Below are positions 6,595 through 27,693 of a stretch of DNA of 64,000 nt, piece by piece. Below the pieces are notes generated by a model. The model made no database searches. It was not told where the DNA came from and saw only the letters and a program-made list of their open reading frames with translations. A program made the position numbers and the translations under genes. The stretch's first letter is position 1, and each line of letters starts with the position of its first letter. Source of the DNA: Mariluticola halotolerans (GTDB lineage: Bacteria; Pseudomonadota; Alphaproteobacteria; Rhizobiales; Devosiaceae). The stretch covers positions 310,001-374,000 of the forward strand of contig NZ_CP090960.1 of NCBI RefSeq assembly GCF_021611515.1, written 5' to 3'.

Positions 6595-6611
6595 ATTCCG
6601 TCAGACGAAAT
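6595..6611. promoter_or_regulatory. Putative IclR-type operator, copy 1
   Basis: ATTCCGTCAGACGAAAT matches the palindrome RTTYCR-N5-YGRAAY shared by six intergenic sites in this window. It lies 131 bases upstream of the TAXI-TRAP receptor gene, the only gene it could control. Assignment to the IclR regulator at 27710-28486 is inference from site 6, which lies in that gene's own promoter region. Confidence 0.55.
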
Positions 6612-6741
6612 GCATGTTAAGATTGGCTTCCGATCAGGCTTAGGGAGTGGTTGGGTTTTGTGGAAGCCCGGAACGGCGGGAATATGCGCAGAAAACGGGT
6701 CACTGAACTGTAAAAGACGCGGAGACGCGGGAGGACAATCC

Positions 6742-7869
6742 ATGAAGCATGCACTCAAGACTTTCTCAATTGCAGCGATGATGGCTACGTCGGCATTTGC
6801 TGCTGATGATGTTAAATTACCCGACACCCTTACCTGGACCAGTTTTGACGTGGGCGGGACGGGCTATAACCAGTCGATCGCGGTCGGCAAGGCCTTGCAG
6901 GATGCCTATGGTACATCCTTGCGCGTTATTGCCGTCAGCAATGATCAGGCGCGCATCGCACCTGTTCGCGATGGGCGTGTTCCTTTCTCTCTGGCGGGAA
7001 GCGATGTGTTCTTTGCATTCGAGGGTGTTCAAGCCTATGCCAGCGCAGAATGGGGGCCGCAAAATCTGCGTGCTCTTAATCTTGCTGGCGCAGATAACTG
7101 TGTCAGTCTCGGCGTGGCTGCGGACTCAGGCATTGAGACACCTGCCGATGTAAAGGGCAAGCGGGTAGGCTGGGTTGTGAGCTCAGGCTCATTGCAGGCG
7201 AATGTGCGTGCCTTCCTGGCATTTGCCGGCCTTACGACGGACGACGTTGAACTGGTCGAATTGCCCGGCTATGCCCAGGCATGGACCGCAATGATCAATG
7301 ATCAGATTGATGCCATGACTGGTGTGACCACCAGTGGTGTTGTTGAGCAGGCCGCTGCGAGTGCCCGTGGTCTCAAATGGCTCTCCTTTCCTCACGAGGA
7401 CCAGGAAGGCTGGGATCGTTTGCGCGAAGTGAACCCGCATTTTTCCAAACGCGTGGGCACGCTCGGTGCCGGATTTACCGGCCCGGTTGAATGTGCAGGC
7501 GTGCCTTATCCTGACCTGATCACCTATAATGCGGACGAGGATTTGGTCTACAACCTCACAAAGGCGCTTGATGCCCAGGTTGATGTGTATTCCAAGGCCG
7601 ACGCGGGCACTGTCGGATATGCGGCGGACAAGCAGATGTTCGACTGGGTTGTTCCTTATGACGCCGGTGCAATTCGCTATTACAAGGAAGCCGGGGTTTG
7701 GTCCGATGCGCTTCAGACACACAACGATGCGTTGATTGAACGGGCCGGTGTTCTTGCAGAAGCCTGGAAACAGATGGATGGCAAGAGCGGTGACGGATTT
7801 GCCGAGGAGTGGATGGACGTTCGCGCCGCAGCCCTCGAAGCGGCTGGTCTTCCAGTTTACTTCCGGTAG
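6742..7869 (+). CDS. TAXI-family TRAP transporter solute receptor
   Basis: 375 residues from ATG 6742, preceded by GGGAGG and opening with a signal peptide (MKHALKTFSIAAMMAT, cleavage near AFA-ADDVK). Family features follow: TWTSFDVGGTGYNQSIAVGK at the mature N terminus, and later a segment (EDLVYNLTKALD) typical of TAXI receptors. The protein is periplasmic and delivers an organic anion, probably a dicarboxylate-like acid or amino acid, to the fused TRAP permease encoded 5 bases downstream. Operator copy 1 lies in its upstream region, which ties it to the surrounding catabolic block. Confidence 0.92.
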   Translation: MKHALKTFSIAAMMATSAFAADDVKLPDTLTWTSFDVGGTGYNQSIAVGKALQDAYGTSLRVIAVSNDQARIAPVRDGRVPFSLAGSDVFFAFEGVQAYASAEWGPQNLRALNLAGADNCVSLGVAADSGIETPADVKGKRVGWVVSSGSLQANVRAFLAFAGLTTDDVELVELPGYAQAWTAMINDQIDAMTGVTTSGVVEQAAASARGLKWLSFPHEDQEGWDRLREVNPHFSKRVGTLGAGFTGPVECAGVPYPDLITYNADEDLVYNLTKALDAQVDVYSKADAGTVGYAADKQMFDWVVPYDAGAIRYYKEAGVWSDALQTHNDALIERAGVLAEAWKQMDGKSGDGFAEEWMDVRAAALEAAGLPVYFR

Positions 7870-7874
7870 GAAAA

Positions 7875-9866
7875 ATGACGCACACAGTATCTTCAACTGC
7901 TGACGGGGAAGTTCTCCCCGTCAGGAACATCGGCACCGCGGCCCGCTGGGTAACGCGGATTGCGACGATTGCGCTGATCATTCTTGGCATCAACCAATCG
8001 TTCAATCTCAGTTCCAAGTTCAATTTCTCGATAATCGAGAACCAGTATCTGTACGGGATATTGGGGCTTGCGATACCGATGGTCTTTTTGCTGTTTCCGC
8101 TTAGCGAGAAAACAGCAGAGGCAAAACCTACAGTGATCGATTGGATGCTGGCGGCCATTGCTGCTGTGTGTCTTGGCTATTTTGTCTACAACGCCTATCC
8201 AATCGTCCTGTTGGGCTGGGAAATGCTCCCCCCGATCGAGGCCATCGTCATGGGCGCGATCTTGTGGGGCCTGATTATAGAAGCTGGCCGACGCACGGGC
8301 GGGATCGTTCTTGCCTCTATCGTTGCCTTCTTCTCTTTATATCCGCTGTTCGCGGACAAGATGCCTGGACCGATTTCCGCATTCTCCTCGCCGTTTCAGT
8401 TTGCGGCGGCCTATCACGCCATGAGCCTGGAAAGTATTCTGGGTATCCCGCTCAAGGCGTTTGCCAATCTGGTGTTCGGCTTCATCATTTTTGGGGCTGC
8501 GCTTGAACATACCGGGGCGGGGCGGTTCTTTATCAATCTCGCCTTTGCGCTTCTTGGTCATGTGCGTGGCGGACCGGCGAAAGTCGCTATTGTTTCCAGC
8601 GGGCTGATGGGGTCGCTCAGCGGCTCTGTTGTGACAAACGTCATGACCACCGGGGTGATGACCATTCCCGCGATGCGGCGTTCCGGCATGAAAGGCGTGA
8701 CTGCTGCGGGGATCGAGACCTGCGCCTCAACCGGCGGGGTGCTGATGCCGCCCGTGATGGGGGCGGCGGCCTTTGTCATGGCGCATTTTCTGCAAGTGCC
8801 TTATGCGACCATTGCCATCGCCGCGGCCGTTCCTGCATTCCTTTATTTCTTTGGTCTGTTTATCCAGATCGACGCGCGGGCCGCGCGGGAAGGATTGAAG
8901 GGCCTGCCCAATGACGAGTTGCCTGACCTGATGCAAACGCTGAAGGAAGGCTGGCACCATATCTTTGCCATCGTATTGCTGGTGTTCATGCTGCTGGTGC
9001 TTCGCCGGGAGTCGCTCGCACCGTTTTATGCGACGGTTGTTCTTCTGGTGATCAACCAGATCGCCTCCAAGACCAATCGCTGGGGCATGGAACATGTGTA
9101 TTCCTTCCTCGACAGCCTGGCACGCCTTTTTGCCACGCTGACCGCGACGCTTGGTGCCGTCGGCATGATTGTGGGCGGGTTGTCGATGACCGGTCTCGCT
9201 GGCACGCTGGTCAATGACCTGTTGTTCATCGCGGGCAATTCGCCTTATCTGCTGCTCATCATGGGGGCGATTACAAGCCTTATCCTGGGTGTGGGGATGA
9301 CGGCTACAGCGTGCTATATTTTCCTGGCGATCATGCTGGCACCCGCTCTTGTGCAGGTTGGGCTCAATCCCTTGGCTGTGCACTTGTTCATCTTCTACTG
9401 GGGGATGCTGAGCTTCATTACACCGCCAGTGGCGCTGGGGGCTTTCGCCGCAGCCAGTATTGCCAATACCCCACCCATGCGTACCGGGTTTGAATCGATG
9501 AAGATCGGATCTGTGATCTATTTCATCCCGTTCTTTTTTGTTCTCGATCCGGCACTCATCCTGGTCGGGGAGTGGCAGAATATCGTGATATCCGTGACGC
9601 TAGCGATTTTCGGGGTGTTTATTTTCGCCAGCGCCATTCAGGGATATGTGGCAGGTATCGGCCCGATTTTCGGTCAGAATGCCAGAGGAACCCTTTTCCG
9701 GTTTCCGGTTCTTGCCGGGGCGGTGCTTATTGCCTTGCCGGGTGAGGCTATTCCGGGATGGAGCGATTTCCATCTCCTGCTGGTCGGCCTTGTATTGATT
9801 GTGCCCACGCTGGGAATTGCATGGATGCAAAACCGGCGTGCGCAGGCCGCCATCGCTCTCCCGTGA
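7875..9866 (+). CDS. TRAP transporter permease, fused 4TM/12TM (DctQ-DctM) type
   Basis: 663 residues from ATG 7875, the usual size for a TAXI-associated fused permease. An N-terminal helical part of about 160 residues replaces DctQ. The DctM-like part follows, with GHVRGGPAKVAIVSSGLMG near residue 228 and the conserved VMTTGVMTIPAMRRSG segment just after. Many hydrophobic helices are evident. The start was chosen because AGGAAAAATG follows the TAXI stop directly; a frame-continuous ATG at 7809 inside the TAXI gene is less likely. Together the two genes form a complete importer. A strong hairpin overlaps the stop. Confidence 0.93.
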   Translation: MTHTVSSTADGEVLPVRNIGTAARWVTRIATIALIILGINQSFNLSSKFNFSIIENQYLYGILGLAIPMVFLLFPLSEKTAEAKPTVIDWMLAAIAAVCLGYFVYNAYPIVLLGWEMLPPIEAIVMGAILWGLIIEAGRRTGGIVLASIVAFFSLYPLFADKMPGPISAFSSPFQFAAAYHAMSLESILGIPLKAFANLVFGFIIFGAALEHTGAGRFFINLAFALLGHVRGGPAKVAIVSSGLMGSLSGSVVTNVMTTGVMTIPAMRRSGMKGVTAAGIETCASTGGVLMPPVMGAAAFVMAHFLQVPYATIAIAAAVPAFLYFFGLFIQIDARAAREGLKGLPNDELPDLMQTLKEGWHHIFAIVLLVFMLLVLRRESLAPFYATVVLLVINQIASKTNRWGMEHVYSFLDSLARLFATLTATLGAVGMIVGGLSMTGLAGTLVNDLLFIAGNSPYLLLIMGAITSLILGVGMTATACYIFLAIMLAPALVQVGLNPLAVHLFIFYWGMLSFITPPVALGAFAAASIANTPPMRTGFESMKIGSVIYFIPFFFVLDPALILVGEWQNIVISVTLAIFGVFIFASAIQGYVAGIGPIFGQNARGTLFRFPVLAGAVLIALPGEAIPGWSDFHLLLVGLVLIVPTLGIAWMQNRRAQAAIALP

Positions 9867-9876: not shown

Positions 9877-9904
9877 TGCCTATGGGGTGTGACCCCGACG
9901 GCCG

Positions 9905-10771
9905 CTAAAACCCGTAAAGGCGGGCAGGGTTGTCGACGAGAATTGCCTTTCGGGTTGTCTCGTCGGGCACCATTTCGCCCAACAGGTCGACCAGATGACC
10001 ATCATCAGGCATTGGCCGCGTCAAAACAGGATGCGGCCAATCTATGCCCCACAAGGTCCTATCGGGGGCGATTTCGACGAATTTGCGGGCGATCGGGATC
10101 ATGTCAGCAAAAGGCGGGCCGGTTTCTGAGCCGCGCTCGGCACCGGATATTTTCATCCACGTGCTCTTGCCCTGCAGCATCGTGCAAAACTCGTCAAAAT
10201 ATTTGCCGCCATAGTCACTGCCATTGAGACGGCCCATGTGATCGATCACGTGGGGCAAGGGCAGGTCGGCGATCCAATTTTTGAGTTGGGGAATTTGTTC
10301 AGGATCAAAATGCAGGACGGCATGCCAGCCGAAAGGGGCTATCCGTTCCAGTATGCCATTGATTGCCTCAAGTGACGGGGCTTTCTGGATGCGGGACATG
10401 AAATTGAAACGTACGCCACGCACGCCTACAGCATGAAGCTCTTCAATCTGCTCAATAGTACAGTCGGGCGGGAGGAGTGCGACACCCCTTAGCCTGTCAG
10501 GATAGGTTTTGAGCGCATCAATCATGGCGCTGTTGTCGAAGCCGTGACAACTGGCCTGCACGATCACCCCGCGGGAAATGCCCAGGTGCCGGTGCAGGGC
10601 CAACAGCTTTTCTATAGGCGCCTCGGGCGGGTCGTAGGCCCGTTGCGCGCTGTAGGGGAAAAGCGCTGCAGGCCCCATTATATGACAATGGCTGTCGCAT
10701 GCGTTTGCAGGCAGGGCCAAATTTGGCCGGCTGGGTTCCGGACATGGCGGTGGGCACGGTCTCCTGATCAA
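9905..10771 (-). CDS. Amidohydrolase-family lactonase-like enzyme (2-pyrone-4,6-dicarboxylate lactonase / galactarolactone isomerase type)
   Basis: 288 residues if translation starts at TTG 10771, which has an ideal AGGAGG seven bases upstream; the frame stays open another 201 bases but that part reads as non-coding. Metal-binding His residues occur near the N terminus in ACDSHCHI. Later landmarks are VIDHMGR, WGIDWPHP and a closing VDNPARLYGF, all typical of amidohydrolase group 2 (COG3618). Known members hydrolyse 2-pyrone-4,6-dicarboxylate or isomerise galactarolactones, both cyclic carboxylates. Neighbours make a sugar-acid lactone at least as likely as a pyrone. Operator copy 2 is 76 bases upstream. 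Confidence 0.88.
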   Translation of the reverse strand: MIRRPCPPPCPEPSRPNLALPANACDSHCHIMGPAALFPYSAQRAYDPPEAPIEKLLALHRHLGISRGVIVQASCHGFDNSAMIDALKTYPDRLRGVALLPPDCTIEQIEELHAVGVRGVRFNFMSRIQKAPSLEAINGILERIAPFGWHAVLHFDPEQIPQLKNWIADLPLPHVIDHMGRLNGSDYGGKYFDEFCTMLQGKSTWMKISGAERGSETGPPFADMIPIARKFVEIAPDRTLWGIDWPHPVLTRPMPDDGHLVDLLGEMVPDETTRKAILVDNPARLYGF

Positions 10772-10846: not shown

Positions 10847-10863
10847 ATTTTGACAGGCGGAAC
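10847..10863. promoter_or_regulatory. Putative IclR-type operator, copy 2
   Basis: ATTTTGACAGGCGGAAC fits RTTYCR-N5-YGRAAY with one mismatch. It sits in the 167-base divergent gap between the amidohydrolase (minus) and the SnoaL-like gene (plus), and contains a TTGACA that could be a -35 element, so a bound regulator could affect both genes. Confidence 0.5.
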
Positions 10864-10938: not shown

Positions 10939-11559
10939 ATGCCGTCCACGTCCGAGACCCGTCTTGCCGCAATGCTTGACCGCGAGGAGATTTGTGATCT
11001 GGTGCGCAAGGAACGTTTTGCGCGCGATCAGGGGCATTGGGAGATCATGGCGGCGTGTTTCCACCCCGATGCCCATATTCGCACCAGCTGGTTCAATGGC
11101 AATGGCGTGGATTACATTCCCGCGACCCAGGAAATGCTCAAAAGAGTACCCGGCAGTAAACACTGGGTCTTTCCAGGGTTGGTGCAGGTGAATGGTGACA
11201 AGGCGCTTGTTGAAAGCCCCGGCCTGATTTTCAATCGTATTGAACTTGAGGGCGTGGAGGTCGATTATCAGATCTTCTGCCGGTATCAGTCCCGTGTCGA
11301 ACGCCGCGATGATGTCTGGCGGCTGCTTACTTTCGAGGTGATTTTTGAGCGTGATGTCATGCGTGCGCTCGACCCATCAAAAGACTTGCCTATCGATTGG
11401 AATCTTTTGGCCAAATACCGGCCTACCTATCGCTTTCTTGCCTATCTGCAGGACAGAAGAGGGTTTGATCTGAGCCACGAATTACTGGGAGACGACCGGC
11501 CTGAGGCGTTGAGGAGATTTCACGAGGGTGAGAGCAGCTGGCTCTACGGCGCTGGTTAG
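10939..11559 (+). CDS. NTF2/SnoaL-like domain protein
   Basis: 206 residues from ATG 10939, with TTGAGGAGAG upstream. The N-terminal part (REEICDLVRKERFARDQG, then FHPDAHIRTSWF near residue 45) is typical of SnoaL-like polyketide-cyclase/NTF2 folds, such as ring-hydroxylating dioxygenase small subunits and dehydratase-like proteins. The C-terminal 70 residues are not familiar. The gene stands alone between a divergent amidohydrolase and a convergent dehydratase, with an IclR-type operator upstream. A catalytic role as a hydratase or isomerase in the local pathway is possible, but nothing in the sequence fixes it. Confidence 0.8.
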   Translation: MPSTSETRLAAMLDREEICDLVRKERFARDQGHWEIMAACFHPDAHIRTSWFNGNGVDYIPATQEMLKRVPGSKHWVFPGLVQVNGDKALVESPGLIFNRIELEGVEVDYQIFCRYQSRVERRDDVWRLLTFEVIFERDVMRALDPSKDLPIDWNLLAKYRPTYRFLAYLQDRRGFDLSHELLGDDRPEALRRFHEGESSWLYGAG

Positions 11560-11620: not shown

Positions 11621-13357
11621 TCAGAAGATGTCCGGTTCCGGCGTTGGGCCACCATAGTCCGACCGTAAAAAATCAAAGTCGCAACCCTTGTCGGCCTGTT
11701 CAACATGTTTGCTGAACATGTGTACGTAACCGCGTTCATATTTGGAGGTGGGGGCAATCCAGGCAGCTTTGCGGCGCGCCATTTCCGCGTCGGATATTCT
11801 GACGTTGAGTGACCGGTTGGGGACGTCCAACTCGATAATGTCGCCATTTTCTATCAGGGCCAAAGGTCCACCGATAAATGCTTCGGGCGAGACATGCAGG
11901 ATGCAGGCGCCATAGGAGGTCCCTGACATGCGCGCATCGCTTAAGCGCACCATATCGCGGTGACCCTTTTTGAGCAGGGCGCGTGGCATGGGGATCATGC
12001 CCCATTCGGGCATGCCGGGACCGCCTTGCGGTCCTGCATTGCGCAGAACCAGAACTGTATCCGGGGTCATCGGGTAATCCGGATCATCAATGATGGACTT
12101 GAGTTCCGGATAGGAATTGGCGACCAGCGCCGGCCCTGCATGGACATGAAATCCGGGGTCGCATGCGGCGGGCTTGATAACTGCGCCGGTTGGCGCGAGG
12201 TTGCCTTTCAGGACGGCCAGTGACCCTTCCTTGTAGACCGGGTTTGAGAGTGGCCTTATGACGTCTTCATTGTAGACGGTCGCCCCGGCCAAACCTTCGC
12301 CAAGCGTTTTGCCGGTAACTGTCAGTGTCGACACATCCAGTTTTTCGCCTAATTGCACCATGAGCGCCCGCAGGCCACCCGCGTAGTAGAAATCTTCCAT
12401 CAGGTAGTCTTTGCCCGAGGGGCGGACATTGGCGATGACGGGGGTCGTGCGCCCGATCTTATCAATCTCATCGAGATCGACGAAGATATCTGCGCGGCGT
12501 GCCATTGCAATAATGTGGATCAGCGCATTGGTTGATCCGCCGGTTGCCATTGCGACCGTTATCGCATTCTCTACAGCTGCCTTGGTGATGATTTTGTCAG
12601 GCGTCAGATCTTCCCATACCATGTCCACAATACGACGCCCGCACTCTGCGCTCATTCGCTGATGGCTGGTGTCGGGGGCGGGGATTGACGAGGCCCCGGG
12701 CAGACAAAGCCCCAGGCTTTCCGCAACCGCCGTCATTGTTGCCGCTGTGCCAAAGGTCATGCAATGGCCATCAGACCGTGCAATGCCGGCTTCAATGCCA
12801 AGCCACTGCTCTTTTGAAACATTGCCTGCGCGTTTCTCATCCCAGTATTTGTAGGCATCAGTGCCTGAGCCAAGCGGTTTGCCAGCGTAATTTCCGCGCA
12901 GCATTGGGCCCGCAGGCAGATAGATAAAGGGAAGTCCCACCGATATGGCGCCCATGGTCAATGCCGGGGTGGTCTTGTCACAGCCGCCCATCAGCACTGC
13001 ACCATCCACGGGTTGTGAACGCAGCGCTTCTTCAACCTCCATGGCGGCCATGTTGCGATACAGCATGGAGGAGGGTTTGATGAAAACCTCTGAGAGCGAC
13101 ATTGCGGGGATCTCGAGCGGTAATCCACCAGTCTGCAGCACGCCTCGTTTCACCCATTCCACCCGGTCCTTGAAATGCATGTGGCATTGCTGGGTGTCTG
13201 ACCAGGTGTTGATGATGGCGATGACGGGTTTGCCTTCCCAATCCTTGGGGCCATAGCCCATTTGCATTGCACGTGAGCGATGCATGAAGGAGCGAAAATC
13301 GTCCTTGGCCAGCCAGCGTGCCGAGCGTAATTCTGTATATTTTTTGTGTTTGTCCAT
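11621..13357 (-). CDS. IlvD/Edd family dehydratase (L-arabinonate/aldonate dehydratase-like)
   Basis: 578 residues from ATG 13357, with GGGGAG eight bases upstream. All three cluster ligands are present: Cys58 in QQCHMHF, Cys126 in GGCDK (with Lys128, the metal-site lysine of the family) and Cys199 in GHCMTFG. The length and the opening RSARWLAKDDFRSF-like segment match sugar-acid dehydratases rather than biosynthetic IlvD. It is a full-length paralogue of the truncated gene at the window start. The product would be a 2-keto-3-deoxy acid. The gene is downstream of an Ldh-type dehydrogenase on the same strand, with operator copy 3 in the gap, so it can have its own regulated promoter. Confidence 0.94.
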   Translation of the reverse strand: MDKHKKYTELRSARWLAKDDFRSFMHRSRAMQMGYGPKDWEGKPVIAIINTWSDTQQCHMHFKDRVEWVKRGVLQTGGLPLEIPAMSLSEVFIKPSSMLYRNMAAMEVEEALRSQPVDGAVLMGGCDKTTPALTMGAISVGLPFIYLPAGPMLRGNYAGKPLGSGTDAYKYWDEKRAGNVSKEQWLGIEAGIARSDGHCMTFGTAATMTAVAESLGLCLPGASSIPAPDTSHQRMSAECGRRIVDMVWEDLTPDKIITKAAVENAITVAMATGGSTNALIHIIAMARRADIFVDLDEIDKIGRTTPVIANVRPSGKDYLMEDFYYAGGLRALMVQLGEKLDVSTLTVTGKTLGEGLAGATVYNEDVIRPLSNPVYKEGSLAVLKGNLAPTGAVIKPAACDPGFHVHAGPALVANSYPELKSIIDDPDYPMTPDTVLVLRNAGPQGGPGMPEWGMIPMPRALLKKGHRDMVRLSDARMSGTSYGACILHVSPEAFIGGPLALIENGDIIELDVPNRSLNVRISDAEMARRKAAWIAPTSKYERGYVHMFSKHVEQADKGCDFDFLRSDYGGPTPEPDIF

Positions 13358-13444: not shown

Positions 13445-13461
13445 GTTCCGCTTAGTGGAAC
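13445..13461. promoter_or_regulatory. Putative IclR-type operator, copy 3
   Basis: GTTCCGCTTAGTGGAAC is the cleanest palindrome of the set, with five of six arm pairs matching. It is 87 bases upstream of the aldonate-dehydratase-like start (13357) and 20 bases past the stop of the upstream dehydrogenase gene. Confidence 0.6.
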
Positions 13462-13481: not shown

Positions 13482-14534
13482 TCAGCGCAGGAACGCAGGT
13501 AACGCAACCTTCAGTTGGACAGCGCGGGCACCAAGCGCTTCGGCTACCGGCAGGGCTATGGTCATTTTTCCGTTGTTGGTTGCGATCATTTCGGCGCTGC
13601 GTTCGCCGGGCACAAAAAGCCGATCGGTTCCCTCGGCCTTTTTTGACTGGCGTATGCGTTCAACACCAGCGCGTGCATCTTCGAGAAACGCATCAATCGG
13701 CCGGAAATGGCGAATGTCGAGAGCGAGAAACAGGAGTGAGGCGTTATAGGGCTTTTCCCCCTTCATTTCACCAAGGGTTGGTCCCCATCCGCCCGAAGCC
13801 AATGCACCTGACAAGAGATCGATGACGAAAGACAGACCAAACCCTTTTGCGCCTCCGGTCGGCAGAAGAAATCCGGCCAAGGCGGTCGCCGGGTCGGTCG
13901 TTGGGTTGCCCATGGCGTCGAGTGCCCAGTTGTCAGGCAATGGTTGTCCTGAGGCGAGCTTTTGGCGGATGGCCCCGATAGTGCCTTCGGTTGTGGCCAT
14001 ATCGAAGACGACTGGTGTGTCATCTTTTACCGGGAAGCCGATTGCAACGGGATTGGTGCCGACGAGGCGTTCTGCGCCGCCTGGTGCTGACATGACGGGT
14101 TTCGAATTGCACATTGCCAGCGCGGCACAACCCTGTTCTGCGGCCATCCTGACATAACGCCCCGCCACGCCACAATGATATCCCCGCCTGACGGAGACGG
14201 CTGAAATGCCGAATTCCCGCGCTTTGGCGACGGCGATTTTCATCGCCTCTTCGGCCATCAGGTGTCCTTCCATGTCTGCCGCATCGAGGACAACCACACC
14301 GCCGCTTTCGCTGATAATCTTGGGGTGGGAGGCGGTCGACATTGTTCCATTGACCAGTCTTTCAAGATAGCCATCTGCCTGCAGGATTCCATGGGAGACC
14401 CGTCCGGAGATGTCTGCTTCGACCAGCGCCCCGGCTACGCGGTGGGCGGCATCAGTGGCGAGCCCTGCGGCGCTGAAGAGTTCGGAAATGAAGGCAGTTA
14501 CATCGGGTACATTGGCAGCTTTGGGCGATTTCAT
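13482..14534 (-). CDS. Malate/L-lactate dehydrogenase family (Ldh_2/YlbC-type) oxidoreductase
   Basis: 350 residues, standard for the NAD(P)-dependent Ldh_2 family, which is unrelated to the Rossmann-fold LDHs. Family landmarks include SHGILQADGYLERL near residue 40, RRGYHCGVAGRYVR near 115 with the conserved His, GTNPVAIGFP near 160 and the glycine-rich GGAKGFGLSFVIDLL near 230. Members reduce or oxidise 2-hydroxy acids (malate, lactate, ureidoglycolate) or ring imines. It is a paralogue of the gene at 33622-34659. The start is set at ATG 14534. It lies upstream of the dehydratase on the same strand and divergent from tctCBA system 2. Confidence 0.91.
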   Translation of the reverse strand: MKSPKAANVPDVTAFISELFSAAGLATDAAHRVAGALVEADISGRVSHGILQADGYLERLVNGTMSTASHPKIISESGGVVVLDAADMEGHLMAEEAMKIAVAKAREFGISAVSVRRGYHCGVAGRYVRMAAEQGCAALAMCNSKPVMSAPGGAERLVGTNPVAIGFPVKDDTPVVFDMATTEGTIGAIRQKLASGQPLPDNWALDAMGNPTTDPATALAGFLLPTGGAKGFGLSFVIDLLSGALASGGWGPTLGEMKGEKPYNASLLFLALDIRHFRPIDAFLEDARAGVERIRQSKKAEGTDRLFVPGERSAEMIATNNGKMTIALPVAEALGARAVQLKVALPAFLR

Positions 14535-14716: not shown

Positions 14717-14733
14717 ATTTCGACTGGCGGAAT
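14717..14733. promoter_or_regulatory. Putative IclR-type operator, copy 4
   Basis: ATTTCGACTGGCGGAAT matches RTTYCR-N5-YGRAAY exactly. It is 121 bases upstream of tctC system 2 and 183 bases upstream of the divergent Ldh-type gene. Confidence 0.6.
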
Positions 14734-15813: not shown

Positions 15814-15839
15814 CTGCAAGACAAGGTAAACCCAGAACG

Positions 15840-16274: not shown

Positions 16275-16285
16275 GGAATAACTAA

Positions 16286-19297: not shown

Positions 19298-19314
19298 GTT
19301 TCATTGCACGGAAT
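19298..19314. promoter_or_regulatory. Putative IclR-type operator, copy 5
   Basis: GTTTCATTGCACGGAAT matches RTTYCR-N5-YGRAAY. It lies in the 118-base gap between the MmgE/PrpD gene and the class I fumarase-like pair, 76 bases before the TTG start at 19391. Confidence 0.55.
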
Positions 19315-19390
19315 GATTGGCTCTCGATGTTTGTCGTGCCCGTGAAGGCAACGTAGAGGTGAGTGACAGAGAGCGAGGGGAGCGTCTGAA

Positions 19391-20260
19391 TTGCCGATCA
19401 CCTATGACGTTATCAGGCAGGCCGCTTGCGACCTTTACGGATGGTCACTCAAAAAGGTGCCCGACGATACGCTCGACGCGCTGGCAGCAGCGCGCCTGAC
19501 GGAAACCAACCCCACCTCCCAGCGCACGCTCGATTTCATGCAGGCGGCGGCGCGGGCTGCCGAGAGCGAAGACCGGCACGCCTGTTCGGACGCGGGCTTT
19601 CCCACTTATTTCGTCAAGATCGGCACCAAGCTGACGCTGGACGGGGATATCCGCCGCGCCTTTGTCGATGGCTTTGCCGAACTGGTCGATACGATCCAGC
19701 CGCCGATCCTCAAATTCATCACCCATCCGCTGACCATGGAGCGGAGTTACAAGGGCAAGGACATGCCGATTGTCTCCTTCGATGTGATCGACGGGGCAGA
19801 TTACATGGAAATCACCTGTTCGCCCAAGGCGCTCGGGTCGGGCCGCTGGGCGGATCTGAAGATTTTCAGCTATCCCAAGATTGCGGAAATCGAGGCCTAT
19901 TTCATGGAATGCGTGCTGGCTGCCGGCTCGCAGCATTGTCCACCGGTGATTATCGGCATGGGCATTGGCGGTTCGTTCGATCATGCGGCGAAAATGGCCA
20001 AGCAGGCGACCCTGCGCAAGATCGGCTCCAAACATGCCGACCCGATGATCGCCGAGATGGAAGAGCGCCTGCTGGTCGCCGTCAACAAGACCGGCTTTGG
20101 CCCCATGGGCACCGGGGGCGACACCACGGCCCTGGCGGTGCATGTGGATTACGCCCATGGGCACGGCTTTGTGCCGGTCGCTGTGTGCTTTAACTGCTGG
20201 ATAAACCGGCGCACCGCCGTGCGCATCGACAATGACGGAAAGGTGACCCGCCTTGAATAG
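19391..20260 (+). CDS. Class I fumarase / L-tartrate dehydratase-like alpha subunit
   Basis: 289 residues from TTG 19391; GGGGAG lies eight bases upstream and no ATG or GTG in frame is better placed. Three cysteines expected to hold the 4Fe-4S cluster are visible: in RHACSDAG near residue 61, SQHCPP near 180 and VCFNCW near 272. This is the N-terminal-domain subunit of two-subunit class I hydro-lyases (tartrate dehydratase TtdA, fumarase, mesaconase). The beta subunit starts within its last codons. The reaction adds or removes water at a C4-C5 dicarboxylate. Tartrate, fumarate and mesaconate are all possible. Confidence 0.9.
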   Translation: MPITYDVIRQAACDLYGWSLKKVPDDTLDALAAARLTETNPTSQRTLDFMQAAARAAESEDRHACSDAGFPTYFVKIGTKLTLDGDIRRAFVDGFAELVDTIQPPILKFITHPLTMERSYKGKDMPIVSFDVIDGADYMEITCSPKALGSGRWADLKIFSYPKIAEIEAYFMECVLAAGSQHCPPVIIGMGIGGSFDHAAKMAKQATLRKIGSKHADPMIAEMEERLLVAVNKTGFGPMGTGGDTTALAVHVDYAHGHGFVPVAVCFNCWINRRTAVRIDNDGKVTRLE

Positions 20261-20903
20261 CGCTGAGACAGAACCCTTGCGCCTGACATTGCCGCTATCG
20301 GTTGATGTGGCCCGCTCGCTCAAGGTCGGTGATATGGTGCTGCTCGACGGCGAGGTGACCGTCACGGCAGGCTTTGTCACCCATGAACGCATGATCGCGG
20401 CGCTGGCCAAGGGCGAGCCGCTGCCGATTGATTTGCGCGGGCAAGCCTTTTTCCACATGGGCAGCAATTGCCGTGAAGAGAACGGCAAATGGCTGCCCAA
20501 TTACGTCAATCCAACCACTTCGACCCGGTTTAACGCCTTCATGCCGACCCTGATCCGGGAGCTGGGACTGACATCGGTCGGCGGCAAGGGCGGTATGGGC
20601 GCTGAATGTGTTGCCGCCTTGAAAGAAATGGGCTGCGTCTATTTCTCCATGCCGGGCGGCGCGTCGCCGCTGTTGAGCAATGGCGCGGAGGAACGGCTTG
20701 AGACCGGCTGGGACGATCTGATCGAACAGTTCCGCCTGTCGCGTTACAGGCTCAATGGGTTCGGGCCGGTGACGGTCGCGATAGATGCCCATGGCAATAG
20801 TCTTTATGAGGATTTGCAGCAGGCCGCCGTCAGCCGCTTGCCCGATATTCTCAAAGAGCTCGAAGCCACACGGCTGGCGTCGAGCACCAACAGCACCCGC
20901 TGA
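20253..20903 (+). CDS. Class I fumarase / L-tartrate dehydratase-like beta subunit
   Basis: 216 residues. The start TTG 20253 overlaps the alpha-subunit stop by 8 bases, which implies translational coupling. The sequence carries the beta-domain features: VGDMVLLDGEVTVTAGFVTHER near residue 25, the glycine-rich GGKGGMGAE near 110 and YFSMPGGASPLL near 127. It completes the iron-sulfur hydro-lyase with the gene before it. It is followed after 28 bases by a MaoC-type hydratase. Confidence 0.9.
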   Translation: MNSAETEPLRLTLPLSVDVARSLKVGDMVLLDGEVTVTAGFVTHERMIAALAKGEPLPIDLRGQAFFHMGSNCREENGKWLPNYVNPTTSTRFNAFMPTLIRELGLTSVGGKGGMGAECVAALKEMGCVYFSMPGGASPLLSNGAEERLETGWDDLIEQFRLSRYRLNGFGPVTVAIDAHGNSLYEDLQQAAVSRLPDILKELEATRLASSTNSTR

Positions 20904-20931
20904 ACCAACCTTTTATATTCCGGAGAATTGA

Positions 20932-21381
20932 ATGCCCCGCTTCCTTGAAGACTTTGAGATTGGCGAGACCTGGGTCAGCAAAAGCGTCGAGATGACCGAG
21001 GCGGATATCATCGCCTATGCGCTGCAAAACGATCCCCAGCCCATGCATACCGATCCGGTCGCGGCGGCAGCCGGGCGGTTCGGCACCGTCATTGCCAGCG
21101 GCTGGCAGATCGCGGCGCTCTCCATGCGGCTGTTCATCGAGAGCGGCGGTTATGGCGATACGCCGGTTGTGGGGCTCGGGATTGACGAATTGCGCTGGCG
21201 CAAGCCGGTGCGTCCGGGTGATGTGCTGACGGTCACCCGCGAGGTGATTTCAGCGGAACGCTCAAAAAGCCGCCCCGAATTCGGGGTGATCGGCACAAAG
21301 GTCACGGTGTCCAACCAGAAGGACGAAACCGTGATGACCCTTGTCAGCAAGGGCCAGGTGCCGGCGCGTTCAACCGAATAG
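20932..21381 (+). CDS. MaoC-like dehydratase (hotdog fold), first copy
   Basis: 149 residues from ATG 20932 with GGAGAATTGA upstream. The hotdog hydratase motif is near residues 34-42 (NDPQPMHTDP), giving the Asp/His dyad, followed by RFGTVIASGWQIAALSMRLF in place of the usual iahG segment. Relatives hydrate enoyl-CoA thioesters or act as itaconyl-/mesaconyl-CoA hydratases. Co-linearity with the fumarase-like pair suggests one acid passes through both steps, perhaps after CoA activation by the ligase at 22503-24044. It ends the plus-strand block, next to the composite repeat. Confidence 0.88.
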   Translation: MPRFLEDFEIGETWVSKSVEMTEADIIAYALQNDPQPMHTDPVAAAAGRFGTVIASGWQIAALSMRLFIESGGYGDTPVVGLGIDELRWRKPVRPGDVLTVTREVISAERSKSRPEFGVIGTKVTVSNQKDETVMTLVSKGQVPARSTE

Positions 21382-21757: not shown

Positions 21758-22510
21758 CTAGAGGTGCCGGCCTTCATCGACGGTAATGATCAGGCCGGTG
21801 CTGCTGGTCAAATCGACAATAGAGGCCACAATCGCGCGGGCGACATCATCGGCCGAGGTGATCTTTTTGAGCGGCACCTGCGCTGCCGTGGCCTCAAGCT
21901 GCGCCCGTGTGCGCCCCGCGACAAATTCGGTATCCACCCCTGCAGGCGAGATCGAGAACACGCGGATCGTTGGGGCCAGCACCTTGGCCAGCCCGATGGT
22001 GAGCGTGTCGAGCCCGCCCTTTGCAGCGCAATAGGCAAGGCTGCTGCCCACACCCTTTTGGGCGGCGAGCGAGGACACATTGACGATGGCGGCATTTGTG
22101 CCCTTGTCGAGCAGAGGCCGCATGGCGCGGATGACTGCAAACGGTCCGCGCAGATTGACCGCCACCACATTGTCGAAAATGTCGTCGGTCAGCTGATCGA
22201 GTTCGTTGAGCGGCACCGGCTTTGTATTGCCACCGCTATTGACCAGCGCGTCGAGCTTGCCGAATTGCCGGGTGATGGTCTCGGCAGCCGCTGTAATGCT
22301 GGCCGTATCTTCAAGGGCAATGCGTAAGGCCAGATGGCCGCTGCCCGCCATTTCCGCCACCAGCGCTTCGGCGGCGTCCTGATTGGAGTGATAGCCAACA
22401 ATCACGCTTGTGCCGCGCTGGGCCAGCCGCAGGGCCGTGGCGCGGCCAATGCCGCTGCTGCCGCCAGTGATCAGGGCGACGTCGGGGCCGTTCTCATGAT
22501 GCTCAGCCAT
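21758..22510 (-). CDS. Short-chain dehydrogenase/reductase (SDR), FabG-like
   Basis: 250 residues from ATG 22510, chosen because GGGAGG lies six bases upstream; an ATG two codons earlier (22516) would leave no spacing. SDR motifs: cofactor loop GGSSGIGRA near residue 17, NSGGN (usual NAGG) near 90, and the Ser-Tyr-Lys triad in NVSSLAAQKGVGSSLAYCAAK near 138-158. Such enzymes oxidise or reduce 3-hydroxyacyl or sugar substrates. It is the last gene of the minus-strand operon with an acyl-CoA ligase and a MaoC hydratase, so 3-hydroxyacyl-CoA oxidation is a plausible role. Confidence 0.9.
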   Translation of the reverse strand: MAEHHENGPDVALITGGSSGIGRATALRLAQRGTSVIVGYHSNQDAAEALVAEMAGSGHLALRIALEDTASITAAAETITRQFGKLDALVNSGGNTKPVPLNELDQLTDDIFDNVVAVNLRGPFAVIRAMRPLLDKGTNAAIVNVSSLAAQKGVGSSLAYCAAKGGLDTLTIGLAKVLAPTIRVFSISPAGVDTEFVAGRTRAQLEATAAQVPLKKITSADDVARAIVASIVDLTSSTGLIITVDEGRHL

Positions 22511-24044
22511 TGGCATCCTCCCAATAGGCTTTTTTCAGGTCCTGCTTGAGCACCTTGCCGACGGCATTGCGCGGCAGTTCAGGGCGTACTTCAATGGCCG
22601 AAGCGCGTTGCATCTTGCCCAGACGGCTATTGAGCCAGGCCAATATGTCATCCGGCGTAATCTCTGCTCCGGGTTTGGCGACCACCAGACCCAGCGGGGT
22701 TTCACCCCATTTTTCGCTCGGAATGCCGATGACGGTGGCGTCGGCGATGTCGGGGTGCTGCAGCAGCTTTTCCTCAAGGTCCGAGGCATAGATATTGAAG
22801 CCGCCCGAGATGATGACATCCTTCTTGCGGTCAACAAGGGTCAAAAACCCGTCGCTGTCGAAAACGCCGATGTCGCCGGTGCGGTGATAGAGCACGCCAG
22901 TCTTGTCGCGCCAGTAAAACGCGTCATTCGCCGCTTCGTTGCGGAAATAGCCCGACATCATCATGGCCGAACGGCCGATGATCTCGCCGCGTTCGCCAGT
23001 CGGCACATCGTTTCCAGCCTCGTCGATCACCCTGATATCATTGCCGCTTGCCGGCTTGCCCACCGTATGGGCTTTTTCGGGAAAGGCTGCGACATCGAGA
23101 ATGCAGGTACAGCCGCCTTCGGTCAGGCCATAGACTTCGAGAAAACGCCCCGGCCAGTCATGGGCGATACGCTTTTTGTCGGCGGGCGCAATCGGCGCGC
23201 CGGTGGATTGCTTGATTTTGAAATGGCTGAGGTCGCGGCTGGCAAAACCTGGGGCTGCCAGAATGCGCTGATATTGCACCGGCACCAGCATGGTATGGGT
23301 CGCGGTGAATTTCTCGGCCAGTTCGAGATAACCCTCGGCATCGAATTTGGGCATCATCACCACGCGCGCGCCATGGCAGAGGGCCGAGAGCATCGGCATC
23401 AGGGTGGTGTTAGAATAAAGTGGGGTTGCCAGCAGCATGGTGCTGTCCGGCCCGAGGCCGAACAGGCTGCGGGCAGCCTGCCGGTAGCGCATGGCATGGG
23501 GCTGGACAATGCCCTTGGCCTTGCCGGTCGTGCCGGAGCTGTAGATGATATTGAACGGGGTGTCGGCGGGCACCTGCAGCGGGGCTTCCAGCGGGGTGGC
23601 ACCGGCAACAAGGTTTGCCATGTCGTCCGTGCCAAGACGCACAGCGCGGAGATCCGCTTTGAGAAATGGCTGCAGGTTATCGAGATATTTGCCATCGGCA
23701 AAAATCAGGCTGGGCGCGCAATCGCTGACCATGCCCGCCAGGGCCTCTGGATGGGCTGAAGTCTGCAAGGGCACCGCGCATTTGCCCGCGGCAACGATCG
23801 CCAGATAGGCAATCACCAGATCTAGGCTGACATCGCCGAGCAGCACCACGCGCGCACCGATTTCGGGCGATTGGGCATAAAGTGCACCGGCCAGCGCCAG
23901 CGTCCGGCGGCGCAGCGCGCTCCAGCTTGTCTCTGTGTCACCGCAGATCAGGGCAATGTCATCGGGGCGCAGCAGGGCATGGGCGAGAATGGTCGCCAGC
24001 AGCTGGGCTTCGGCGTCCGGGGCGTGTTCTTGTGTTGCAGTCAT
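22503..24044 (-). CDS. Class I AMP-dependent acyl-CoA synthetase
   Basis: 513 residues from ATG 24044, which overlaps the MaoC gene's stop (ATGA). Adenylate-forming motifs are complete: YSSGTTGKAKG near residue 170, VYGLTEGG near 305, YHRTGDIGVFD near 385 and DRKKDVIISGGFNIY near 405, ending with RNAVGKVLKQDL, whose Lys is the adenylation lysine. It activates a carboxylic acid to its CoA ester using ATP. The downstream SDR and upstream MaoC genes would then hydrate and oxidise the thioester. The acid is unknown. Confidence 0.93.
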   Translation of the reverse strand: MTATQEHAPDAEAQLLATILAHALLRPDDIALICGDTETSWSALRRRTLALAGALYAQSPEIGARVVLLGDVSLDLVIAYLAIVAAGKCAVPLQTSAHPEALAGMVSDCAPSLIFADGKYLDNLQPFLKADLRAVRLGTDDMANLVAGATPLEAPLQVPADTPFNIIYSSGTTGKAKGIVQPHAMRYRQAARSLFGLGPDSTMLLATPLYSNTTLMPMLSALCHGARVVMMPKFDAEGYLELAEKFTATHTMLVPVQYQRILAAPGFASRDLSHFKIKQSTGAPIAPADKKRIAHDWPGRFLEVYGLTEGGCTCILDVAAFPEKAHTVGKPASGNDIRVIDEAGNDVPTGERGEIIGRSAMMMSGYFRNEAANDAFYWRDKTGVLYHRTGDIGVFDSDGFLTLVDRKKDVIISGGFNIYASDLEEKLLQHPDIADATVIGIPSEKWGETPLGLVVAKPGAEITPDDILAWLNSRLGKMQRASAIEVRPELPRNAVGKVLKQDLKKAYWEDANG

Positions 24045-24499
24045 GGATTTTCAATCAGCAGGATGTTCTGAGCGACGAGGGCAGGCTTTTCAGTGCCCTC
24101 GATCTCGATTTCGAGATCAAATACCAGCCGCGCGCCCAGCGCATGTCCGGTGGCGTCCACCAGCGACTGTTTCAGGCGAATGCGGCTTTCCACCGGCACC
24201 GGCAGAATGAACCGCACGCGATCATAGCCATAATTAAGGCCCTTGCCGCGCTGGCGGATGGCGTAGATTTCGCGCTGCAAGGCCGGCACCAGCGCCAGCA
24301 GGTAAAGGCCATGCACAATAGTGCGGCCCCGGGGCATATCGCTTTTTGCCCGCTCCACATCAATGTGGATCCAGTGGTCATCGCCAGAAAGCTCGGCGAA
24401 ATCATCGATTTCCTTTTGGGTGATGGTGCGCCATTCAGAGGCACCGAGCACCTGACCGGCATGGTTTTTGAGGTCAAGCGGGCGATCTACGGTCAGCAT
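24041..24499 (-). CDS. MaoC-like dehydratase (hotdog fold), second copy
   Basis: 152 residues from ATG 24499, overlapping the stop of the oxidoreductase gene (TGATG). The (R)-specific enoyl-CoA hydratase motif appears near residues 36-66: LSGDDHWIHID, then RGRTIVHGLYLLAL. It retains the Asp-His pair and the HG turn, closer to canonical PhaJ/NodN proteins than the copy at 20932-21381. It probably hydrates or dehydrates the CoA ester made by the neighbouring ligase. Confidence 0.9.
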   Translation of the reverse strand: MLTVDRPLDLKNHAGQVLGASEWRTITQKEIDDFAELSGDDHWIHIDVERAKSDMPRGRTIVHGLYLLALVPALQREIYAIRQRGKGLNYGYDRVRFILPVPVESRIRLKQSLVDATGHALGARLVFDLEIEIEGTEKPALVAQNILLIENP

Positions 24500-25524
24500 C
24501 AGGACTGCCCGTGGCCCGTGCCGGGCACCGTCTCGGCCAGATCGGCGTCAACGGCCATGACCACTTTGCCGATCTGCTCGTTGCGGTCCAATATGGCATG
24601 CGCCTTGCGCACTTCGCTAAAGGGCAGAATGGCGTGAATACGGGTGGTGATGCGGCCCGCTTCAATCAGCGGCCAGACTTCCTTGACCAGCGCCTCGGCC
24701 ACGCGGCCTTTATAGACCGGGCTTTGCGGGCGGATGGTCGAACCCGACAGGAAGAGACGGCGGCGGACGATCTGGCGGACATTCACTTCCGCCGTTTCGC
24801 CCTGATGGCTGGCAATCAGCACCAGCCGGCCGTCATATTTCAACAGGTCGAGCTGCTTCTGGGTATTGGGACCCGCCTGGGCGTCAAGGATGACGTCAAC
24901 GCCTTGCTTGCTGGTCAGTCCCATGATTTCCCCGGTCCAGTCACCGCGATAATCTACCGCTGCTTCGGCACCGATATCGCAGCATATCTGGCGTTTGGTC
25001 TCACTGCCGGCGGTAGCAAAAACACGCGCATTGCGCAATTGCCGGGCAATCTGGATGGCTGCCATGCCGACACCACTGGTGCCACCCTGAACGAAAAGGG
25101 ATTCGCCTTCGGCCAGCCGACCGCCCCAGATGACATTGTTCCAGGCGGTGAAAAACGCCTCGGGCAGGGAGGCCGCTTCAATGAAACTGCTGCCCTTGGG
25201 GATGGGCATGCATTGCACTGCTGGTACGGCGCAATACTCGGCATAACCGCCGCCATTGGTCAGCGCACACACGGCGTCGCCAACAGCGAGATGCGTGACC
25301 TCGCTGCCGGTTTCGGCGACAATGCCAGAAATATCGAGGCCGGGTATGGGCGATGCATTGGGCGGGGGCGGATAAAGCCCGCGCCGCTGCTGAATGTCGG
25401 GCCGGTTGATGCTGGCGGCAACAACGCGGACCACAACTTCATGGGGGCCGGGTTGTGGCCTGTTCTGGTCCGCGAAGTGCAAGACTTCAGGACCACCAGC
25501 ACCAATTATTTCAACCACCTGCAT
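24499..25524 (-). CDS. Zinc-free quinone oxidoreductase / MDR-family NADPH-dependent reductase
   Basis: 341 residues if translation begins at ATG 25524 (MQVVEIIGAGG); ATG 25536 and TTG 25542 are in-frame alternatives. Family landmarks: NRPDIQQRRGLYPPPP near residue 47, GLDISGIVAETG near 70, and the nucleotide-binding VQGGTSGVGMAAIQIAR near 147. No catalytic zinc Cys set is apparent, as in Qor/crotonyl-CoA reductase-type enzymes. It would use NADPH to reduce a quinone or the double bond of an enoyl substrate. It overlaps the MaoC gene downstream. Confidence 0.9.
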   Translation of the reverse strand: MQVVEIIGAGGPEVLHFADQNRPQPGPHEVVVRVVAASINRPDIQQRRGLYPPPPNASPIPGLDISGIVAETGSEVTHLAVGDAVCALTNGGGYAEYCAVPAVQCMPIPKGSSFIEAASLPEAFFTAWNNVIWGGRLAEGESLFVQGGTSGVGMAAIQIARQLRNARVFATAGSETKRQICCDIGAEAAVDYRGDWTGEIMGLTSKQGVDVILDAQAGPNTQKQLDLLKYDGRLVLIASHQGETAEVNVRQIVRRRLFLSGSTIRPQSPVYKGRVAEALVKEVWPLIEAGRITTRIHAILPFSEVRKAHAILDRNEQIGKVVMAVDADLAETVPGTGHGQS

Positions 25525-25560
25525 CACATCACCCATTTTCAAAACCCGAATTCTACGCGC

Positions 25561-26547
25561 CTATTTTTCCCAGTCATGCACAATCGGGTTGGACAAGTGG
25601 CCCAAGCCTTCGATTTCAATGTCGAGCTTACCCGTGAGCTGGTGCAGATTGACAGACCTGTGGCCCCTCGGAAACTTGCCGACGCCCTTGGCAGAGGTGC
25701 CAAAGCAGATCACATCACCGGCCTCAAGCGTAAAGTACTGGCTGGCTTCGGCCACGACTTCTTCAACCTTGAAACGATAGCTGGAGGTGGAATCAACCGC
25801 GAAAGGTTCGCCATCGAGCCAGCCTTTGACTTCGAGATTATTGGGGTCCTTGACCTCGTCCGCCGTGGTCAGCCACGGGCCCATCGGCCCGAACGTGTCG
25901 GTCGCCTTGGAGCGGGTGTGATAGACGAAATAAACGTCGTGATCGTCTTCGCCATGCAGGTTGCGCCAGGCGAGGTGATGGGGACGGATCATGTCCGCCT
26001 CGCGGGTGGTGGCAATGGAGTCCATGCCGAACTTCATGCCATGCGAGGTGACGTCATTGATGATCGAATAGCCGAAAATCGCGTCACGGGCTTCAGCGAC
26101 GGTGATCTTGCGGCAGCGCTTGCCGATAACGGCGGCGAGCTCAAGTTCGGGAATGGTCTCACCAAAATGCTCTTCCATGATGATCGGCTTGTTATGGCCG
26201 GTCAGGCTGGAGGGGGCTTTGAGGAAGAAATTGGGCACGCCGGGATCGACATGGGCTGATTTGCGAATGCCCATATTGTTGAAGGCGACGCCCAGAATCT
26301 TGGAGGGCCGGGTTTGCGGGGCGCACCAATCCAGCGTTTCGGGATCCAATGGGGACGCTTCTCCCTGATCCATTGCCTGCTTCAGACGCTTGCGTTCTTC
26401 TTGGGCACCGTCGATCAGGTCCTGCATGGATTTGGGTGCCTCGCCGAGGCCCGCGCTTTGGTAGAGTTCGGTCAGCAAGACGGCGGAATCGCCTTTCTTC
26501 GCGACAAGCGCTGGCTTGCCCTGACTGATTATGGTGCCGAGTTTCAT
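25561..26547 (-). CDS. Fumarylacetoacetate hydrolase (FAH) family protein
   Basis: 328 residues from ATG 26547, with CAAAGGAAAC upstream. The FAH-fold metal ligands are visible near residues 130-165: PELELAAVIGKRCRKI with two Glu, then NDVTSHGMKFGMD with an Asp. A cis-peptide/oxyanion lid segment KAPSSLTGHNKPI precedes them. Family reactions include acylpyruvate hydrolysis, oxaloacetate decarboxylation and 2-keto-3-deoxy-acid dehydration or cleavage. In this cluster it could cleave a keto acid from the dehydratase branch. It is 36 bases upstream of the reductase gene. Confidence 0.92.
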   Translation of the reverse strand: MKLGTIISQGKPALVAKKGDSAVLLTELYQSAGLGEAPKSMQDLIDGAQEERKRLKQAMDQGEASPLDPETLDWCAPQTRPSKILGVAFNNMGIRKSAHVDPGVPNFFLKAPSSLTGHNKPIIMEEHFGETIPELELAAVIGKRCRKITVAEARDAIFGYSIINDVTSHGMKFGMDSIATTREADMIRPHHLAWRNLHGEDDHDVYFVYHTRSKATDTFGPMGPWLTTADEVKDPNNLEVKGWLDGEPFAVDSTSSYRFKVEEVVAEASQYFTLEAGDVICFGTSAKGVGKFPRGHRSVNLHQLTGKLDIEIEGLGHLSNPIVHDWEK

Positions 26548-26660
26548 AGTGTTTCCTTTGACATGTGTCTCAAATCAGGCTCGAGCCAGCTGGTTAGGCC
26601 CGCAGTTTGGGACGCGGGCTTTGAGAAGGGAGATAATGCGCTGCTGCGCAAACAATGGCT

Positions 26661-27602
26661 TCAGCGTGCGCCGGTATCCAAGCCGACCAGCCGGGCAGGG
26701 TTGTCGCGCACCATCAGGCGGACATCAGCTTCGCTATAGCCCAGGGCCAGGCAAAGCTTGATTGCCTGCCGCATGCCCTCGACAGGGGAAGGGTTGTCGA
26801 CTTGCCCCAGATCGGAGCCAATCGACGTATTTGCAACTCCGGCGGCGTCGATATGTTCTTTAAGTTCGGTCGGTGTGAAAACGTTGAACCTTGAATCAAC
26901 ATACAAGCAGGCTGATTGTTCGATCTGTGCGCCGAAATCTGCAAATTCCCGGATGTCTTCGTAGGTGAAATGCAAGCCATACATTGGATGGTTGATAAGC
27001 AAGCGTTTGATGCCACGCTTTTTTGCTTCGGTAAAAAGTGTCCATATTTCGGAAACGTGCAAATGGCCAGACGAAAGGATCGCGTCGAACTCGGCAATTG
27101 AGTCGAGGATTTCCTTGACCTCGTCGAGCAGCTCGCCATAGGCGTCGATCACTGTAATTCCCGGGGATTTTTTTAGCTGAACGTTCGAGGCCAGTCGCGA
27201 TTTGCGATGTGAGCTGCGAATGTGGTTTGCCGACTGTGCAGTTGGCATCCAGATCAGTTTTGCGCCCATTTTCAGTTGAGCGTCGACGACGAATGGATCC
27301 AACCCGCCGGTGGAATTGTTGAGAACCAGGCCCCCGTACATAGCAACGTTATGCTTGCCCAGAACGCGGTCCATTATGGGCAGGAACGGCGCGACGGAAT
27401 AATGATGATCCTTGAACAGAATGCCGCGCATACCTGCTGCGGCCGCCTGTTCCACAGCTTCGAAATGATCGAGCTGTCTGGACATGGTCGACGGGCCGGA
27501 ATGAACGTGAAGATCGAGCGCACCCTGCATCAGCCCGTCGACAACCGCATCATCAATACCAGCGATCATTGCGCGGACCTGGGCCCGGTTTTCTTCAGAC
27601 AT
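26661..27602 (-). CDS. DUF6282-like metal-dependent hydrolase (amidohydrolase fold)
   Basis: 313 residues from ATG 27602, with GGAGG upstream. The N-terminal GALDLHVHSGPSTMSR (near residue 27) gives the HxH metal site; FKDHHYS near 63 and SSGHLHVSE near 175 add His residues, and INHPMYG near 200 another. It ends with DNPARLVGLD, the same closing motif as the amidohydrolase at 9905-10771. Proteins of this type are annotated as DUF6282, without a defined reaction. The gene is first in the minus-strand operon (hydrolase, FAH, reductase, MaoC, ligase, SDR) and shares a promoter region with the iclR gene. Confidence 0.82.
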   Translation of the reverse strand: MSEENRAQVRAMIAGIDDAVVDGLMQGALDLHVHSGPSTMSRQLDHFEAVEQAAAAGMRGILFKDHHYSVAPFLPIMDRVLGKHNVAMYGGLVLNNSTGGLDPFVVDAQLKMGAKLIWMPTAQSANHIRSSHRKSRLASNVQLKKSPGITVIDAYGELLDEVKEILDSIAEFDAILSSGHLHVSEIWTLFTEAKKRGIKRLLINHPMYGLHFTYEDIREFADFGAQIEQSACLYVDSRFNVFTPTELKEHIDAAGVANTSIGSDLGQVDNPSPVEGMRQAIKLCLALGYSEADVRLMVRDNPARLVGLDTGAR

Positions 27603-27641
27603 TATTGGCCTCCTTGTTTAACCTGCTTTTTGACATAGAGC

Positions 27642-27669
27642 TTGACGCGGGAAGGGGACAACGTATCTA
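27642..27669 (+). promoter_or_regulatory. Possible promoter of the IclR-family gene
   Basis: TTGACG (27642-27647) and TATCTA (27664-27669) are spaced by 16 bases, and the operator copy 6 begins 8 bases downstream, at or just after the expected start point. A second TTGACA lies at 27630. This arrangement would suit repression of its own gene. Confidence 0.35.
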
Positions 27670-27676
27670 AGAGGGC

Positions 27677-27693
27677 GTTTCGTTAGGTGGAAC
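27677..27693. promoter_or_regulatory. Putative IclR-type operator, copy 6 (autoregulatory)
   Basis: GTTTCGTTAGGTGGAAC matches RTTYCR-N5-YGRAAY. It is 16 bases before the iclR ATG (27710) and 75 bases upstream of the divergent DUF6282 gene. Because the other five copies share this sequence, it links the regulator to them. Confidence 0.6.

Follow-up and report, generated by a model that had tools for sequence, protein, structure and literature searches.

The closest described relatives of the system reported here are the regulators of IclR group 1, for which a family survey (PMC8222616, cited throughout for the portion that we drew on) gives the operator consensus GTTYCRYW3RYGRAAC / WTTYCRYW3RYGRAAW. 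Our subject is a set of 17-bp palindromes of the form RTTYCR-N5-YGRAAY in a 64-kb stretch of Mariluticola halotolerans DNA (contig NZ_CP090960.1, positions 310,001 to 374,000; the window, meaning the whole stretch analysed, numbered from its first letter), together with an iclR gene at 27710-28486 on the forward strand. The palindromes agree with the group 1 operators in half-sites, orientation and gap, one of the six having a single mismatch, and they share with that group the conservation of a site before the regulator's own gene, a mark of autoregulation, which is found here in 20 of 22 relatives. COG3181 and COG3333 are among the functions that the survey associates with group 1. The operator class is already published (PMC8222616), and this regulon is a new example of it. 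According to the survey an IclR protein generally controls its own gene plus one or two neighbouring operons, whereas some seven units are predicted here. The survey gives the position of sites relative to gene starts and not to -35 elements. What is new here is a -35-like TTG standing 15-16 nucleotides (nt) beyond the operator at DUF6282 promoters, and less regularly at other targets, which suggests activation from about -59.

The IclR activators PcaU, PobR and MhpR have catabolic targets, as the present regulator would have. PcaU is said to be named as an activator in the title of a paper, and in all three systems the operator reportedly lies upstream of the promoter, that of MhpR near -58. 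Their operator sequences (Table 1 of PMC8222616) and their enzymes differ from those of this locus. PheR, in the part of its description used here (PMC13273656), is an IclR protein set over both uptake and catabolism, as here, but it is described as a repressor that phenanthrene relieves; its core element is GCAACG, and its targets are phenanthrene genes. A literature search on IclR activators, including portions of PMC13273656 and PMC12285266, returned nothing that settles the position of the operator. Searching with the motif strings found no paper, and our literature search found no published report of this regulon, the supplementary orthologue lists of PMC8222616 (181) lying outside its scope.

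We think it likely that the palindromes are operators of the IclR protein and that this protein activates a local set of targets while repressing its own gene. The predicted regulator qualifies for the family (258 amino acids; HTH_IclR, PF09339, 45.3 bits against a cut-off of 22; IclR_C, PF01614, 35.7 bits against a cut-off of 24), and it has IclR relatives in the PDB. A first-pass annotation of the window had listed six sites of the stated form, all intergenic, and had joined them into one regulon over 21 kb. Five are exact and are the only exact matches in the window: operator 1 (ATTCCGTCAGACGAAAT, 6595-6611), 5' of the TAXI-TRAP genes; operator 3 (13445-13461), 5' of the reverse-strand edd2 dehydratase gene; operator 4 (14717-14733), between Ldh2a on the reverse strand and tctC2 on the forward strand; operator 5 (19298-19314), 5' of the fumarase-like pair; and operator 6 (27677-27693), which does lie, as annotated, in the divergent promoter between DUF6282 and iclR and is kept in related loci. 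The remaining one, operator 2 (ATTTTGACAGGCGGAAC, 10847-10863), between the amidohydrolase gene (reverse) and the SnoaL-like gene (forward), departs from the form by one mismatch. In 100 shuffles of the window the mean was 0.44 exact matches and the largest number 3, so that five or more were reached in none. The intergenic placement stands because we moved three start codons downstream within the longest open reading frame (ORF), on our own reading, to ATG 6742 for TAXI, ATG 14854 for tctC2 and TTG 10771 for the amidohydrolase; with the mechanical ORFs it fails, site 14717 for example falling within one. Seven further one-mismatch sites were absent from the annotation (709, 15331, 16263, 20917, 25138, 53618 and 62716), and only that at 15331, inside tctC2, has a matrix score comparable to those listed.

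The sites are conserved with the regulator. Relatives of the IclR protein were sought in 151 genomes (its own genome and relatives, 18 of which had a match at 1e-20), in GTDB contigs (13 loci) and in 385 genomes of the class (three matches at 1e-55, its own included). Seven, 13 and two of these, respectively, make up the 22 relatives of about 48% identity or more; they were chosen by identity, and some of the loci, such as L038 and L040, are near-copies. In 20 of the 22 an exact site precedes iclR by no more than 140 bp. Exact sites in sister loci also stand before fumA (L040, L041), Ldh2a (L040), tctC or tctA units (e.g. G058, G028, L042), tctC-MmgE (G060) and Zn-ADH (G060, G079), in keeping with the annotation's expectation that sites would be kept beside the genes of relatives. 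The tct homologues of the sister loci share 25-36% identity, and what is conserved is therefore the kind of gene and not strict orthology. Two sister sites are oddly placed, one inside a gene (L043, 8435) and one at the 5' edge of a gene (G028, 27595). In L039, L041 and G015 the TAXI-TRAP genes themselves share a strand with DUF6282 and FAAH and are placed between the two.

How the regulator would act can be read from the arrangement of its promoters. A putative iclR promoter, TTGACG-N16-TATCTA (27642-27669, forward strand), ends 7 nt before operator 6, which would begin at about +2 and so probably covers the regulator's own start. On the other side of the same operator, aligned regions and a promoter scan place a putative DUF6282 promoter at 27632-27661 on the reverse strand, with TTGTCC 15 nt beyond the operator. 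A putative fumA promoter, TTGTCG-N17-TAGAGG (19331-19359, forward strand), stands 16 nt beyond operator 5, and TTGACA follows 15 nt from operator 2 on its SnoaL side. When the DUF6282-iclR regions of 10 loci were aligned, TTGAC and CAAC were invariant in addition to the operator. The fumA and the iclR/DUF6282 promoters (19298-19360, 27642-27693) each contain a CAACGTA stretch close to the operator.

On the DUF6282 side a TTG is found 15-16 nt beyond the operator in all 11 loci of at least 51% identity with an exact site (L040 being left out as a near-copy of L038), and also in all four loci of 48-49% identity, whose flanks had not been seen before, which makes 15 of 15 for the exact-site DUF6282 promoters of the loci covered. 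The iclR side of the same operators has it in 0 of 11. As for the second sites in the loci of 48-49% identity, three of four have it in one direction and none of four in the other. For other targets we left out G064 as a near-copy of G058, the sites G079 31631, L038 4943 and G015 54671, whose target gene is unclear, and the intragenic L043 8435. Among the 27 operator-gene pairs that remained, the best sigma70-like promoter lies at 15/16 in 13, as against a mean of 1.4 and a maximum of 5 in 200 runs with first-order resampled sequences. A TTG at 15-16 nt followed by the standard 17-nt spacer puts the operator centre at about -59, which we take as the geometry of an activator. From consensus elements this geometry would be strong at DUF6282 and fumA and partial elsewhere, and it favours activation of the targets with autorepression over repression alone.

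We therefore propose the following working scheme. The regulator would bind its 17-bp operator in dimeric form. At catabolic promoters, where the operator would lie some 59 bp upstream of the transcription start and 15-16 nt before a weak -35 element, the regulator together with a pathway metabolite would help RNA polymerase to start. At its own promoter the operator would cover the start (about +2 to +18), and for that reason the regulator is proposed to repress itself. The scheme predicts precisely where the operator should lie, some 15 nt before the -35 element, and this placement separates activation from repression.

The alternative that survives best keeps the same regulator and sites and has the protein act purely as a repressor, on all units, until the pathway substrate releases it. 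The 10 aligned loci, in which the operator falls on the presumed iclR start, agree with it, but at DUF6282, fumA and SnoaL the operator lies upstream of the presumed -35 elements and not over them. The operator-to--35 distance is moreover kept across non-homologous promoters, and this counts against a pure repressor since simple blocking needs no fixed distance. We regard repression throughout as unlikely, while still a serious competitor to activation with autorepression.

A number of observations weigh against the proposed scheme. In G058 and G064 iclR has no site directly in front of it; there the gene follows DUF6282, FAAH and ADH genes, an exact site comes just after iclR, ahead of a tctA unit, and DUF6282 is preceded by a one-mismatch site, which also has a TTG at 15/16. 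Exact sites occur in the locus of five of the 14 weaker IclR matches (29-42% identity) of the 151-genome search, so the motif is common to other IclR proteins. The TTGAC upstream of the operator was not seen in G015, G028, L044, L046, L049 and L050, and the autorepression geometry accordingly holds for part of the loci only. Four DUF6282 genes of 34-46% identity lack a TTG at 15/16, and the best-scoring promoter falls at that offset in just two of the four distant DUF6282 rows. L145 and L146 have the operator with no TTG at 15/16, and neither has a recognisable DUF6282 neighbour within 1.5 kb. In 14 of the 27 pairs outside DUF6282 the best promoter lies elsewhere, among them the window's TAXI, tctC2, Ldh2a and edd2 (offset 14); with TTG alone as criterion seven of the 27 fit, one-sided sites fit in 7 of 19 forwards and 2 of 18 backwards, and of 22 further rows (from distant loci and from G086, part of them read in both directions) seven fit. 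Many of the loci are related to one another, so these counts overstate independence, and the 15/16 offset was noticed before it was tested. Finally, the case for SnoaL, the amidohydrolase, edd2 and TAXI as members is weaker, resting as it does on a site in one genome.

A second alternative limits the genuine sites to those of iclR/DUF6282 and fumA and takes several of the others as chance matches to a loose pattern. The motif shows no enrichment over the whole genome (3.447 Mb) against a reversed-pattern control, either exactly (18 sites vs 23) or with one mismatch allowed (382 vs 350), and the case therefore rests on clustering and conservation. Five of the 18 exact sites fall within 21.1 kb, where about 0.11 would be expected, the interval having been picked after the sites were known. 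The other 13 exact sites lie outside the cluster, and 11 of these overlap mechanical ORFs of at least 163 amino acids, if such ORFs are taken as coding; two of the 11 are edge cases, L008 at the very start of an ORF and L013 across two. As for the other two, L010 overlaps just a 99-amino-acid ORF and L006 overlaps none. By the same rule one of the five exact sites of the cluster (14717) would lie inside an ORF.

A matrix was built from the iclR promoters of ten relatives (nine distinct sequences), with the window excluded, and scanned over the 64 kb. It ranks 27677, 13445, 6595 (score 17.56), 19298 and 14717 first to fifth, ahead of 15331 (sixth) and 10847 (seventh, score 13.24). With the outside exact sites mostly overlapping long ORFs, this bears out the expectation that the motif would prefer promoters to coding DNA. 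Among 500 palindrome-preserving permuted matrices, the number of matches that equalled or exceeded the lowest of the six scores averaged 0.97 and reached a maximum of 6, vs the 7 observed, so that operator 2 taken alone has weak support. Those permutations and the presence of the SnoaL, amidohydrolase, edd2 and TAXI sites in this genome alone favour chance for part of the set, as does the genome-wide count; against it, a matrix trained elsewhere places the five exact sites above everything in 64 kb, and all five are intergenic once the starts are corrected. We judge it improbable that several of the set are spurious in this way. The strong operator-like site inside tctC2 (15331-15347, one mismatch) may be chance or an internal second operator.

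The sites go with the regulator and not with the target genes. Loci of the best 29 edd2 relatives among those listed, outside the own genome (61-75% identity), were examined, and L143, which has no upstream DNA, was dropped. None of the 28 readable homologues, all away from iclR, has an exact site from -350 to +100, and L141 alone has a one-mismatch site. The exact site is likewise absent from the two fumA homologues away from iclR, namely the second fumA-like gene of the genome and one in G066. The genome holds 15 HTH_IclR hits, the regulator included; no exact site was found in the 5.0-5.5 kb around the four strongest others, three of these stretches having one-mismatch sites. That the palindromes serve another regulator (an IclR paralogue or a nearby GntR or LysR protein) and stand beside iclR by chance is very hard to credit: the 15 hits and a motif class common to many IclR proteins (PMC8222616) would allow it, but the site stays with this iclR across loci with differing neighbours and is missing beside those four paralogues. 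The annotated reading as one regulon is well supported by matrix, conservation and specificity, with the membership of SnoaL, the amidohydrolase, edd2 and TAXI still drawn from one genome.

The predicted regulon joins scattered transport and enzyme genes into one testable unit that includes the DUF6282 family of uncharacterised function. Pfam searches agree with the gene content as first annotated, and family searches place the genes as follows. The DUF6282 gene (26661-27602, reverse strand) is followed on that strand by genes for an FAA-hydrolase family protein with PDB relatives (25561-26547), a Zn-type, PIG3-like oxidoreductase (24499-25542), a MaoC-like dehydratase (24041-24499), an acyl-CoA synthetase (22503-24044) and, last in the presumed operon, a short-chain dehydrogenase (21758-22516). 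Forward-strand genes encode the TAXI (NMT1-like) binding protein (6742-7869, start re-read), a DctM-type TRAP permease (7809-9866, longest ORF), the SnoaL-like protein (10939-11559), the tctC2-tctB2-tctA2 importer (14854-17806, start re-read), an MmgE/PrpD family protein (17893-19272) and the fumarase-like pair with a MaoC-like protein (19391-21381). We take COG3181 and COG3333 to be of TctC and TctA type. On the reverse strand are the amidohydrolase gene (9905-10771), edd2, whose product is an L-arabinonate-dehydratase-type enzyme (11621-13357; NF009559, 1059.2 bits, cut-off 882), and the Ldh2-type dehydrogenase gene Ldh2a (13482-14534). The amidohydrolase resembles LigI and sulfomuconolactone hydrolase (NCBIfam, 228.6 bits, under the cut-off of 500), and the MmgE protein resembles IRG1-type proteins and IDS-epimerase.

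No paper naming the DUF6282 family was found in our literature search, and the PDB has no close sequence. A structural model (pLDDT 93.1) resembles the barrels of the amidohydrolase superfamily, Foldseek pairing it with dipeptidases and dihydroorotase (lowest E value 1.9e-08, TM scores of up to about 0.6). In an alignment of 22 rows H32 is invariant and H34 nearly so, and the two may correspond to the HxH metal motif of that superfamily. A common pathway would have an organic acid imported by the TRAP and TCT systems and then broken down. The L-arabinonate-type dehydratase, lactonase-like amidohydrolase and FAA hydrolase may point to a sugar-acid route, while the acyl-CoA synthetase, MaoC and PIG3-like genes may point to a CoA route. 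Tentatively, we see here a possible undescribed pathway centred on DUF6282 and fed by TAXI-TRAP and TCT, with an IclR activator acting from one strictly kept position (centre about -59), the same operator shutting its own gene, and the ruler from operator to -35 at DUF6282 kept between relatives about 48% identical.

Two further loci deserve mention. In L069-L070 (G086:C7; 9407-25644 in joined coordinates) three DUF6282 paralogues of 34-43% identity and six exact sites resembling the operator surround an iclR of 42% identity, and the stretch may hold another regulon of this type. In L145 an iclR of 51% identity has two exact operator-like sites upstream (1364-1443), 63 bp apart, and one more directly following it.

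Two candidates for membership were rejected. The site at 374282 is flanked by two genes whose products, as read from their translations, resemble a glutathione transferase and a LysR protein. The edd1, MR_MLE, cupin and tctCBA system 1 genes (79-6314) have no exact site and a single one-mismatch site, inside edd1. In G066, MR_MLE, cupin and tctCBA stay together as one block, some 18 kb away from iclR.

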